Shown piece after piece: positions 58,697 to 63,840 of a DNA stretch of 64,000 bases. Source of the stretch: Tubulanus polymorphus (Eukaryota; Nemertea; Palaeonemertea; Tubulaniformes; Tubulanidae); the NCBI RefSeq assembly GCF_964204645.1, contig NC_134027.1, forward strand, positions 8,544,485 through 8,608,484. The letters run 5' to 3'. How positions within the stretch are numbered: the first letter of the stretch is position 1; each line of letters begins with the position of its first letter. Below the pieces are notes generated by a model, which saw nothing but the letters and a program-made list of their open reading frames with translations, was not told where the DNA came from and made no database searches. The translations under genes and the position numbers were made by a program.

Positions 58697-60459
58697 TCAT
58701 CTACAGGTTGCGGGCGTTTCACATAGTATCACTGGCATGTTATAGTGTAGACATGGGTGCGGCAAATCAATGTATCCCTGCAACAGATGAAAATAGTAAG
58801 GCAGAAATGAGAACCATGATCAATGTGATGTATATACTGAAGCATTGTAGCCATGTGCTTTTTCAGTTGGCAGGCCAGTACGCAGTAAGCGGAACTTATT
58901 TGATGGTGAAGCAGGCAACAGCGAGCCCCATCGGTGTTGGTCCCTCCAAGAAAATTTTCAAAATTGGAAGCATTTCAGGCCAATGTTAGTGAAACTGCAC
59001 TTGCACAGAAACACTAATGTAATCTAATTATTTTTCTTTGAGAAAACATTGCAGAACTTGGGATCTTGTCAGGCAGTACATTTGTACTTCTGGTTGTGCA
59101 AGACCTCTATGCTGGTATCTACTGCAACCCTTGAAAGAGAGTTGGGGATGGGAAGTGTCAAAAAGTTTGTTACAGATTGTTACAAGGAAAGGCCCCGGGG
59201 TTTCTCGAAAATTCTTGAACAACCTTTTTGGAGTGTAATCAGGACAGGAGTGAAGTTAGTTGGACCATTTTCTAATGATAATGCTTTACTTAACTGGAAC
59301 TGTAAAACATATGCAATATCACAAATCTCATCAAGAATCCGAACGCTACAGGTCAGCCTCTACAGGACCCCATTCCAGCTGAGCCTTAGATACACTGTGA
59401 TAGCCTACACTGTGGCCAAAATTTGTTACCGCTGTTACAAGGGGTATCAAAATTTTCCCCAAAATGTTACATAATCTTTGAACGGTGCCTAGCCTTTTAA
59501 AATCATCTTGTGGGTTCACTACTGTCATATAACACTGAAGGAATAGCTGGGGTTTTTCATTAAAATGATCCAATTTCTCATTTTTCTTACCAAAGGCGTC
59601 AAATGATGCAAAATTCGTCGCATTGTTGTTCTAAATATTCCTTCTTCCTCTTCTTCATACATAACTTCTTCATAAAATTCATTTGCTAGGTCACCGTCTT
59701 CATCAATGTATAACGAACTGCAACAGAATTTAAAATCAACTTTTCAAAATTGGACTTTTCGCCAAGGTAGGCTTTATTCCAGTAATTGCTTTTTGGCCAA
59801 TAGCTTGTTCAACCTTACAGAGCCCCTAATTCAAAGAATTCCATAGGAACAGGGGAGTGGTCTTTTCCTAAATTTCTTTAGGTGCGCTCATAATTTTAGG
59901 ATAAAAAATTCTTTTTAAAAAATATGAATTTTTCCCTCATGACAGCCATCAAATAGCCTTGGAGTACACCAAAATTTCTTGCCATTTCAAAAGGTTCGCC
60001 ACGTTGGGGTGCCCCAAAATGTAAGTCAACAAGAGAGGGTCATTCGGACCTTTCAGGATATCTTTTATCTGTTTCGATGTCTCGATTTGTTTCCATGCAG
60101 CAGTAACTCAGCTTTTGCATTTTTCGGAAATCAGCAATATTCCCATTTTTTGTTTGAGATAGTGAACCAATAATTTGGGCAGTTTCCCATTAGCATTTCC
60201 ATTATTAAGGAAACTAGAAAACCGAGGTCTATATGTGTATTCCCCAGCAGTTCTGATATCTTGAAAACTGGGCTATGAAATTCGTATACCTTTTCCTTTT
60301 ATAAACAAATGGTGTGACAGCAGTACGCCAGTAGTAGGGGGCACCACCTGCACCAACATCCGATTGTTCATCGTCTTCCTGGCCACTATTCCCACCATAC
60401 CAATAATTGTAAAGGGGAGATACGACTTTTTTAGCAGCTCTTGACGACGCTTGACCCAT
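58697..60459 (-). CDS. TUSC2: TUSC2 (FUS1), small myristoylated mitochondrial protein
   Basis: Three exons: 60290-60459, 59591-59717, 58697-58777 (378 nt, 125 residues; human 110). The start MGQASS has the N-terminal glycine expected for myristoylation. Exon 1 ends in VTPFVYKRK; exon 2 gives YIDEDGDLANEFYEEV, the most conserved part of TUSC2, and exon 3 gives DLPHPCLHYNMPVILCE, matching the conserved C-terminus, followed by six extra residues. TUSC2 is reported to affect mitochondrial calcium handling. The N-terminus has a Gly/Asp/Ala insertion relative to vertebrates. The stop TGA is at 58699-58697. It is head-to-head with the POLR1G-like gene and lies immediately upstream of NET1's 5' end in the same orientation. 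Confidence 0.92.
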
Positions 60460-61002
60460 TATCTTTTACATCAATGAGCTTATCTCTGCATAAACTAGAT
60501 TTTAGCTGAATAAAAATGAAAATTCGATGATAAAGGCGGCCATATTTACTTACTAGTTATAATGATTAAAATGTTGAATGCAACAATAATAATTCGTGTT
60601 TATGGGTTCGAATCCGGTTATATTTGGCTCCAATATCTGAAGCCGTTGCGTGAATACATGTGCGCGGAGTCTTGATTTGAAATTGTATACAAAGTATACA
60701 TTTCTGTGATTGACAGTCTCACTCTTGTATTCCGTCGAGTATGTATCAATTTATACGTTATGAGCAAAGTCTTAAACAAGCATTAAATCAGTCAGAAATC
60801 AACCAAAATGCTAGGCCTGCCCTGGATTTGGGGAGAGCCTAAATTCCCAAAAATAGAATTAGAATAGTGTATACTGTATTCTTCACAGGTCATCTCTGTT
60901 AATATCCGACTGCTTTTATTGTGATTTGACCACCTTAAATGAGTTTCAAACATGAGTAATTTGAAATGAGCAATTTCATCTTTCGGTATTTTTCAGGTAA
61001 TA
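60460..61002. other. Bidirectional promoter region between TUSC2 and the POLR1G-like gene
   Basis: Minus-strand AATATGGCCGCC at 60546-60535 is a YY1-like motif in the TUSC2 direction, about 80 bases before its ATG. GGTTCGAATCCG at 60605-60616 looks like a pol III B box without an obvious A box. The tract TTTTTCAG at 60992-60999 is a good acceptor just before the ATG at 61003, so a non-coding first exon lies upstream. Confidence 0.5.
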
Positions 61003-63840
61003 ATGAATGACTTCCAAGGATTTAGTCCCCTCCGTACGCCTATTAGTGTTAGGCCTACTTCCGACAAAAAGAAAAAGAAATCAAGAAAGAAGTCTGTAGC
61101 AAATGTCTCGCCGATATTCAACAAGCAAGGCGATGTTCACCTCAGTGAAGTTGAGAACACTAGTCTCACAGAGGCGAGCAGGACGAAAAAGCAGACGAAA
61201 TTGAAACTAGTGCGGCCAGAGAAAGTGACTGAGTTCAAATTACTATCGTCATCTGATGAAGAGGATACAAACGTGAATGATGATTTAACAGCGATAGCTG
61301 ACTCGGTGACTGCGCGTATGAAAAGTGCTTCAAAGAAGAGTAAGAAATTGAAAAATAGTCAGGAGCAGGCCCCAGTCATTAGTGCTGGAAAAATAAAACT
61401 AGAATCTGTGACAAAACGTACACCAGTGAAACAGAAAATTTTGTCGCCAATAAAAAAGCCAGCACCGGTACCGGTATACAAACCAGTGAGTTCGTCAGAA
61501 TCAGAATCTAGTGAAGGCGAAGCCGACCTCAGTATTTCAAAAGACATAATCAATCATAAAAAAGCGTCACCCATTAAGTCATCGTCGGCGCAAGAACCGG
61601 TTAAAGTTTCTTTGGATAAGTCACCCCAAAAAAGTAAATCGTCGTTGGAAAAACCTACTTCTCAGACAGCCGCGATCGAATCAGATTCGGGAAGTTCTAG
61701 CAGTTCAGAAGATGAAGGTGAAAAGGAACCACCAAAAAAATCTGTTAACCTGGTTAAATCAAATTCGAACACTGTTGCCTCGCCAAAAAAGACTGGATTC
61801 GTTAAGCCTGTAGTACCTCTTTCCGAATCGGAGACAAGTTCAAATGAAGATGACTTACCCCCAAAAGGGCAGGAACTTCCTGCCGCAAAACTGATAATAC
61901 CGAAGAAAGTTGCCTCAAAACCGATGAATGTTATGGAATCGGATTCTAGTTCAGACGAAGAAGAGCCTAAAAATCCCGCATCAACAACATCAGTTAAGCA
62001 GTTGTCCCCGAAGAAAGTTGCGTCTACAAGCCTGAATAATGGTGCTTCACCGAAAAAGGCTGAATTCCAAAAATCAAAAGAACCTGTTATGGAATCAGAA
62101 TCAAGTAAACTGGCATCATCACCAGTAAAACAGATGTCACCGAAGAAAGCTGCGAATGCAAATTCAATGAATGTATCTTCACCAAGGAAGGCTGTTATCC
62201 AAAAATCGAAGGACACGATGACACCGAAAAAAACTTACAAATCCAAAGAAATTTTATCGGAATCAGATTCCGACTCTGATGATGCAGCCCCATCGAAAAT
62301 ACCAACGCCTGCTGCGACTATTCAGGATTCAAGGTTTCGTGACTCGAGGGATGGAAGCAGTGACAGCGATGACTCAGACAAAAATGATACTGCACCGGAA
62401 AACCAATCAACGTTGAAACGTGGCGGGGACATGTCGCCTTCGAAATCTCCATCGAAGAAATTAAAATCGTCATTGATTGATGAAGACGACATCCATATTA
62501 CGCATCCATTGACGCAGTTAGATCCTAAAACTAAGTACGTCTATGTTCAGACTGTAGGCTAAACAAAACTGATACCTTGTTTCTCCTAATCAGCGGCGTA
62601 AATAGTAAACTGCGATAAGATTTTTAATCAGTTTGTTTCTGTAAGTGCTGGGTCAGTTTAAGTTAGCTTGGTCATGATTTAGAAAAAAGTTGTGTTTCTG
62701 GGTATATAGGTGGCTGGCCGGGTCTTTTAGGCTCAGCAGAAACAAGGTATTAATTTTCTTAAGCCTTATTCTGAATTTAATTTGCAATGTTTGCTGTGAA
62801 ATATCCTTCAGTGTTCATTGTTGAACTTAGTAAACCCTTGTTGGGTGTAGCGCCTGATTTGAAATCAAACTGAAGCTGATTCTGTTTGTAGAATGGGATG
62901 CTTCCCTTAATGACCAATTAATTTCTTCCTTGTGTTGCTAAGTTGACTTACCGTCAAATTGATTTTGTTAGCCATGAACACCTTAAAGACCGTGAAGACA
63001 TTACAAATATACTTTTAATTTTCCCTGTAACTGTGATATCCCTGCGGATAGGTAATGTTCTAATAATCATTCATTTATTGATTGCGTTATGTTATTCAGG
63101 TATGACTGTCCAGACGATTTTGAGAGTTTGTCAGAAAAATCTGATATACTAACTGTTGAAAATATGGATGAGCATTCTGATTTATGGCTGATACGAGTTC
63201 CCATTAATGTAAGTATTAGCTGTTAAATTCATCACGCTTTTTCAATTTTCGTTGTGTTTATTTTTAATTGATAAACAATAAACTGGATTTGAACTTAGGC
63301 TCAGTTTTGGCTAACTTAATTGAAAATGAGTCAAGCTCTGGGTTAAAGATAATATACGTCAATAAAACTGGGCCCTAGAGTTTAAATTCGAACAACCCCA
63401 TCAGTGCATGTAGCGATTTTCTATCTTACTGATATACCAGTTTGCAATTGTTTTTTAGTTCGATATCAAAGCATTAGACAATGTCTCCTTATCCACCGGA
63501 AAAACAATTACCCTCGAAGTAAGTATTTGATAACGTAATGAAAAAACCGTTAAATGAATACAGTAAACCTTGCATAAGTCGGATCGAAGTCGGAAAATCC
63601 ATTTACAGAAATTAATTCTCAAGGCGTAGTTTTCGGATAAAGTTTGGAAATCTGACTTATTCTGTCGGAAGATTTTTCTTGGTCCCAAAAGATCTGACTT
63701 ATGCAAGGTTTACTGTAATCAATTCCGATACACGCTAATCGATTTTAAACACTGCTTTTTCAAACTGCAAAAATTATGCTTTCATTCGAACATTTCAGAA
63801 CAGCGGAGAATTTGAGGCAAATAAAATGCGAGGGGCTGTG
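61003..63840 (+). CDS. POLR1G: Probable RNA polymerase I subunit POLR1G/RPA34 with long Nopp140/treacle-like N-terminal region; 3' end outside window
   Basis: Exons: 61003-62534, 63100-63208, 63459-63518, 63799-63840, then on beyond the window (581 codons seen). Exon 1 encodes 510 residues of low complexity: acidic Ser clusters (SSDEED, SSSSSEDEGEKE, ESDSSSDEEE, SESDSDSDD) alternate with basic SPKK/SPRK units, the pattern of Nopp140 and treacle. A strong donor (ACTAA|GTACGT) in phase 2 joins exon 2 to give KYDCPDDFESL, then HSDLWLIRVPINFDIKAL, which matches the conserved F-CP-NF and LWLI-AP-DF core of POLR1G/RPA34. If that donor is not used, the frame stops at 62562 after VYVQTVG. In human POLR1G the Lys-rich part follows the core; here it precedes it, as a short acidic segment does in yeast RPA34. 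Two separate genes remain possible. Confidence 0.6.
62570..62752. mobile_element. MITE with TGATACCTTGTTTCTC ends, in the POLR1G-like gene
   Basis: Left TGATACCTTGTTTCTCC at 62570 and right CAGAAACAAGGTATTA ending at 62752. It starts eight bases after the stop codon that would be used if the preceding intron were retained. Confidence 0.8.
63561..63715. mobile_element. pogo/Tigger-like MITE (TA target) in an intron of the POLR1G-like gene
   Basis: CAGTAAACCTTGCATAAGTC and its complement at the other end form a 25-bp inverted repeat with one mismatch, flanked by TA on both sides. CAGT ends and TA duplication fit pogo/Tigger members of the Tc1/mariner superfamily. Confidence 0.85.

Follow-up and report, generated by a model that had tools for sequence, protein, structure and literature searches.

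A predicted POLR1G gene of Tubulanus polymorphus with a 510-residue repeat arm ahead of the RPA34 core

RESULTS

A POLR1G gene model with a long N-terminal arm

We analysed a 64,000-nucleotide stretch of contig C3 (the window) from the 268-Mb genome of Tubulanus polymorphus, the genes of which are intron-rich. The locus under study is best read as a single POLR1G (RPA34/A34.5/PAF49) gene, in which a long N-terminal arm and the core of this RNA polymerase I (Pol I) subunit would be encoded by one mRNA and the arm would act as a tether; we assign this reading a probability of about 0.78. DNA 3' of the window was fetched to complete the gene, and downstream coordinates are extended window positions. 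In our splice model, nine exons with GT-AG introns yield one uninterrupted frame of 771 residues, which is maintained by the splice from 62534 to 63100 and then through 63459-63518 and 63799-63840. The features are as follows.

60997..61002, + strand: end of the 5' leader, with a strong acceptor-like tttttcag/gtaata immediately before the ATG
61003..62534, + strand: exon 1, predicted disordered N-terminal arm of 510 residues (open frame, motif enrichment, disorder, intact in the duplicate on contig C8)
62535..63099, + strand: intron 1, GTACGT...TTATTCAG, phase 2 (reading through from exon 1 leads to the stop at 62562)
63100..63208, + strand: exon 2, start of the POLR1G/RPA34 dimerisation core (YDCPDDF ... 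DLWLIRVPIN; PDB RPA34 and PF08208 matches)
63459..63518, + strand: exon 3, core, FDIKALDNVSLSTGKTITLE (frame kept, PF08208)
63799..63840, + strand: exon 4, core, NSGEFEANKMRGAV (part of the nine-exon frame)
64104-64155, 64248-64382, 64475-64537, 64785-65057 and 65270-65319 (stop), extended positions: exons 5-9, past the window, in one frame

The acceptor-like site before the exon 1 ATG scored 6.93, ranking third among the 303 AGs of the gene region. Its position (60990-61002, 6 nt 5' of the ATG) suggests an unseen upstream non-coding exon or a trans-spliced leader. The leader is probably non-coding, since its indels (4 bp and 10 bp) differ between the C3 and C8 gene copies, and coding exons upstream of exon 1 are for this reason unlikely. 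An Rfam search of the window gave no match.

Upstream, the divergent neighbour at about 59525-60459 on the minus strand is a TUSC2 gene (Pfam TUSC2, E = 2.4e-14). The TUSC2 and POLR1G start codons are about 540 bp apart, and the two genes thus possibly share a promoter region. Dispersed repeats at 59207-59383 and 59867-59979 have about 40 further matches in the genome and are probably short mobile elements.

The core belongs to the RPA34/POLR1G family

The original prediction had recognized the core of a Pol I subunit downstream of the repeat region, and this was confirmed. The translated core and tail matched the Pfam family RNA_polI_A34 (PF08208) with E = 4e-18 and 66.7 bits, against a cut-off of 31.7, and this match alone is enough to settle the assignment of the predicted core to POLR1G/RPA34. 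Moreover, the translation of 63100-63840 (exons 2-4, the part lying in the window) matched the RPA34 chains of PDB entries 3nfg/3nff with an E value of about 3e-4, and the longer core matched solved RPA34 chains in the PDB with an E value of about 3e-5. A comparison by profile against human plus yeast A34 gave a probability of 88.7% and E = 2.6e-6. In an alignment with the same two proteins, 20 columns were invariant, among them those of the P-x-x-F and WLI-x-x-P motifs; comparison of the aligned core rows with PDB entries covered 109 residues for human and 154 for yeast and stopped short of the flanks, chiefly the end of the human row.

The core is followed by a C-terminal tail of 127 residues that is rich in lysine, 54% charged and ends in KKKKKKKKKAE. 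The Lys-rich, disordered C-terminal tail that characterizes the A34 family is thus present. We also found the gene for the dimerisation partner, POLR1E (A49), on contig C5.

Exon 1 encodes an alternating acidic-serine and SP-K/R arm

Exon 1 lies within a stop-to-stop frame of 530 codons (60970-62562). From the ATG at 61003, 519 codons are open up to the stop at 62562, and the first 510 form the arm; among 300 first-order Markov sequences modelled on the surrounding 8 kb, no frame exceeded 180 codons. Acidic-serine runs (SSSDEED, SSSESESSE, SSSSSEDE, ESDSSSDEEE, SESDSDSDD and SSDSDDSD) alternate in the arm with SP-K/R units such as SPIKK, SPKK, SPRK and TPKK. Over the 510 residues we counted 6 SPKK-type units ([ST]P[KR][KR]) compared to 0.3 in shuffled sequences, 14 SP-K units ([ST]P.?[KR]) compared to 3.3, and 6 runs of at least six S, D or E residues compared to 0.4. 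None of 2000 shuffles equalled the arm for any of these three classes, and the segregation of charge into blocks was greater in the arm than in 500 of 500 shuffles. The predicted alternation of acidic-serine clusters and SPKK units over about 510 residues therefore holds, given the long frame and the motif counts above those of shuffles. By motif pattern, the arm contains 27 CK2-type and 14 SP-K-type sites, and 91% of its 31-residue windows were classed as disordered by the charge-hydropathy rule. No tandem array was found in exon 1 at the DNA level, so the repeats of the arm are either old or a mere pattern.

The arm and the core are probably joined in one mRNA

The join between exons 1 and 2 (...ACT AA/gtacgt ... 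ttattcag/G TAT GAC TGT) is in frame and would give Thr-Lys-Tyr-Asp-Cys-Pro. In the spliced model ACTAA is joined to GTATGACTG, and the predicted peptide across the join reads LDPK-TKYDCPDDFESLSEK. The phase-consistent Lys-Tyr junction of the original prediction is thus upheld, the frame being kept on splicing. Its description of the donor as strong was overstated: TAA/GTACGT is a moderate site, which a generic matrix scores at 0.69 bits and which ranks 20th among the 237 GTs of the gene. Exon 4 also has GTACGT as its donor, and exon 8 has one slightly better than that of exon 1.

The moderate donor is compatible with a different arrangement, in which a 519-residue, single-exon protein of nucleolar type would end at 62562 and POLR1G would be expressed from its own intronic promoter, starting at ATG 63089. 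This ATG, the only in-frame start for exon 2, is placed 12 nt 5' of the core, and a protein begun there would have a short N-terminus (MLFRYDCPDDF), as in the human and yeast proteins. However, it exists only in unspliced RNA and sits within the acceptor tract of a good splice site. Moreover, the stretch from the 62562 stop to exon 2 (62563-63099) contains neither AATAAA nor ATTAAA to end a first gene before the second, and LDPKTK runs in phase directly onto the YDCP that starts the core. We therefore regard two separate genes as unlikely.

The acceptor at 63100 is the only one within the open frame of the core, and the first ATG 3' of it (63102) is out of frame, for which reason an operon with trans-splicing at 63100 was rejected. 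ATG-containing exons within 62563-63099 that could feed exon 2 have non-consensus donors, and we found no alternative first exon with a good donor, either in this interval or 5' of exon 1. A spliced retrocopy bearing the exon 1-exon 2 junction, which would have favoured the splice, was not found.

Alternative isoforms were also considered, with exon 1 as a regulated cassette and a short form made from ATG 60939/60966 or 63089 next to the long one. The upstream ATG exons are phase-compatible with the core (MSFKHE-YDCP and MSNFIFR-YDCP) and an acceptor-like site stands ahead of the exon 1 ATG, but the donors of these exons are poor (TGA/GTAATT and TCG/GTATTT), and we consider this arrangement less probable still than two genes. 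The single in-frame acceptor, the lack of a usable exon 2 start other than ATG 63089, the poor alternative donors and the missing poly(A) hexamer together argue that exon 1 and the core are likely to form one mRNA, a conclusion reached by gene modelling.

A second copy of the gene on contig C8

About 5.2 kb of DNA (extended positions about 60518-65694) is duplicated in reverse orientation on contig C8 (about 1960990-1966166, minus strand), with 98.9% identity, different flanks and a COMMD8 gene beside it. The gene is complete in the C8 copy, which retains exon 1, the join and every other exon and is free of frameshifts and stops. The two coding sequences show 13 differences, 11 of them non-synonymous, and no indels, and the non-coding parts differ by 0.93% plus indels. 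Within exon 1, 8 non-synonymous and 2 synonymous changes give a rate ratio near 1, which is no guide to selection because the two copies, about 1% divergent, are too alike. In the C8 copy, the Phe of the conserved CPDDF motif is replaced by Ser and exon 7 ends in a different base, and this copy may thus be relaxing. It may be young, and either a real duplication or an assembly artefact. Its identical design is consistent with the one-gene model and does not count as independent evidence.

The arm resembles Nopp140 and treacle in style only

The original prediction had joined a Nopp140/treacle moiety to the Pol I core in a single protein. The join to the core is retained here as the best gene model; the proposed identity of the arm is not. 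Exon 1 had no significant match to Treacle, SRP40_C or any other Pfam family, and none to the Treacle repeat model PF03546 up to E = 1. BLASTP comparison of exon 1 with the Nopp140 repeats of the same genome showed no similarity (E = 1.1). As a genome-wide query, exon 1 matched its own locus and the C8 duplicate only, Nopp140 not being among the matches. A canonical Nopp140-type gene with SRP40_C is encoded separately, on the minus strand at C1:3109800-3119000, and carries the only SRP40_C copy found in the genome. Unlike exon 1, it contains a highly regular array of acidic-Ser and TPKAATPKVAPKPA blocks, with very regular KKDSSDSSDSSSDSEEETPKAATPKVAPKPA repeats. These Nopp140 repeats touch the Treacle model PF03546 (E = 0.0021, below the cut-off); a search of the genome with the Treacle model was negative, but its control failed too.

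Like Nopp140 (NOLC1), the arm alternates acidic-Ser blocks with Lys/Pro/Ser blocks, but it lacks SRP40_C and sequence similarity; with treacle (TCOF1) it shares a polyampholyte repeat style and an expected nucleolar Pol I context, but not a Treacle-family match. Such an acidic-Ser/Lys style is common to many nucleolar proteins, and the resemblance, as judged from the sequences, is one of amino acid style. In human cells, treacle is reported to scaffold the fibrillar centre, and its emergence has been linked to amniotes (PMC11996177, which cites Jaberi Lashkari 2023). If an ancestral treacle or Nopp140 gene had truly fused with POLR1G, the similar style would be accounted for, but the absence of family matches, the dissimilar and separately encoded Nopp140 and the published link of treacle to amniotes make such a fusion very improbable. 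Since no relationship of the arm to Nopp140 or treacle was detectable, we favour a known protein in a new arrangement over a fusion of two.

DISCUSSION

From yeast to human, A34 proteins consist of a disordered N-terminus, a dimerisation core, a Pol I-binding arm and a disordered C-terminal tail (Knutson and Rothblum, PMC11765491). That tail, built of acidic/proline and lysine repeats that number nine in the human protein and three in those of sea urchin and fly, was proposed to act like the Pol II CTD, and phase separation was predicted for the family (PMC11765491). In mammals, the dimerisation domain and the next 100 residues are needed (McNamar et al., PMC10365956). The predicted T. polymorphus protein is similar in the motifs of its core, in the length of about 130 residues that the core has, in its Lys-rich C-terminal tail, and in having charge-alternating disordered repeats somewhere in the protein (PMC11765491). 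In contrast to published A34 proteins, whose repeats lie in the C-terminal tail (PMC11765491), its repeat arm precedes the core: 511 residues stand before the core compared to 11 in human and 22 in yeast, the core thus starting at residue 512 instead of 12 and 23, and the C-terminal tail has 127 residues compared to about 350 in human (PMC11765491). With the repeat region ahead of the core and the tail short, this member of the A34 family most likely carries its main repeat arm N-terminally, and its novelty lies in the position of the arm. The claim of an unusual design is thereby weakened, because charge-alternating disordered repeats are a published A34 trait (PMC11765491); what stands of it is the N-terminal instead of C-terminal placement.

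We propose that the first coding exon, very large at 510 residues, is spliced to the conserved core, which would form a dimer with POLR1E (A49) on the Pol I lobe as other A34 proteins do. The arm would behave as a polyampholyte in which acidic-Ser blocks with CK2-type sites alternate with SP-K/R blocks with CDK-type sites, and phosphorylation could tune its multivalent contacts. By analogy with the role proposed for the C-terminal repeat tail of human A34, the arm is most likely a tunable electrostatic tether, which would recruit basic or acidic nucleolar partners and concentrate Pol I in the rDNA transcription compartment. A bolder and rather unlikely extension is that in this animal lineage the POLR1G arm is Pol I's own treacle-like condensate scaffold, so that one subunit would do the work of the separate treacle of amniotes.

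A repeat arm at the opposite end of the same core would suggest freedom in where the arm is placed, combined with a retained charge pattern. This lineage may also serve as a natural test of the ability of Pol I to bear a nucleolar scaffold of its own without treacle.
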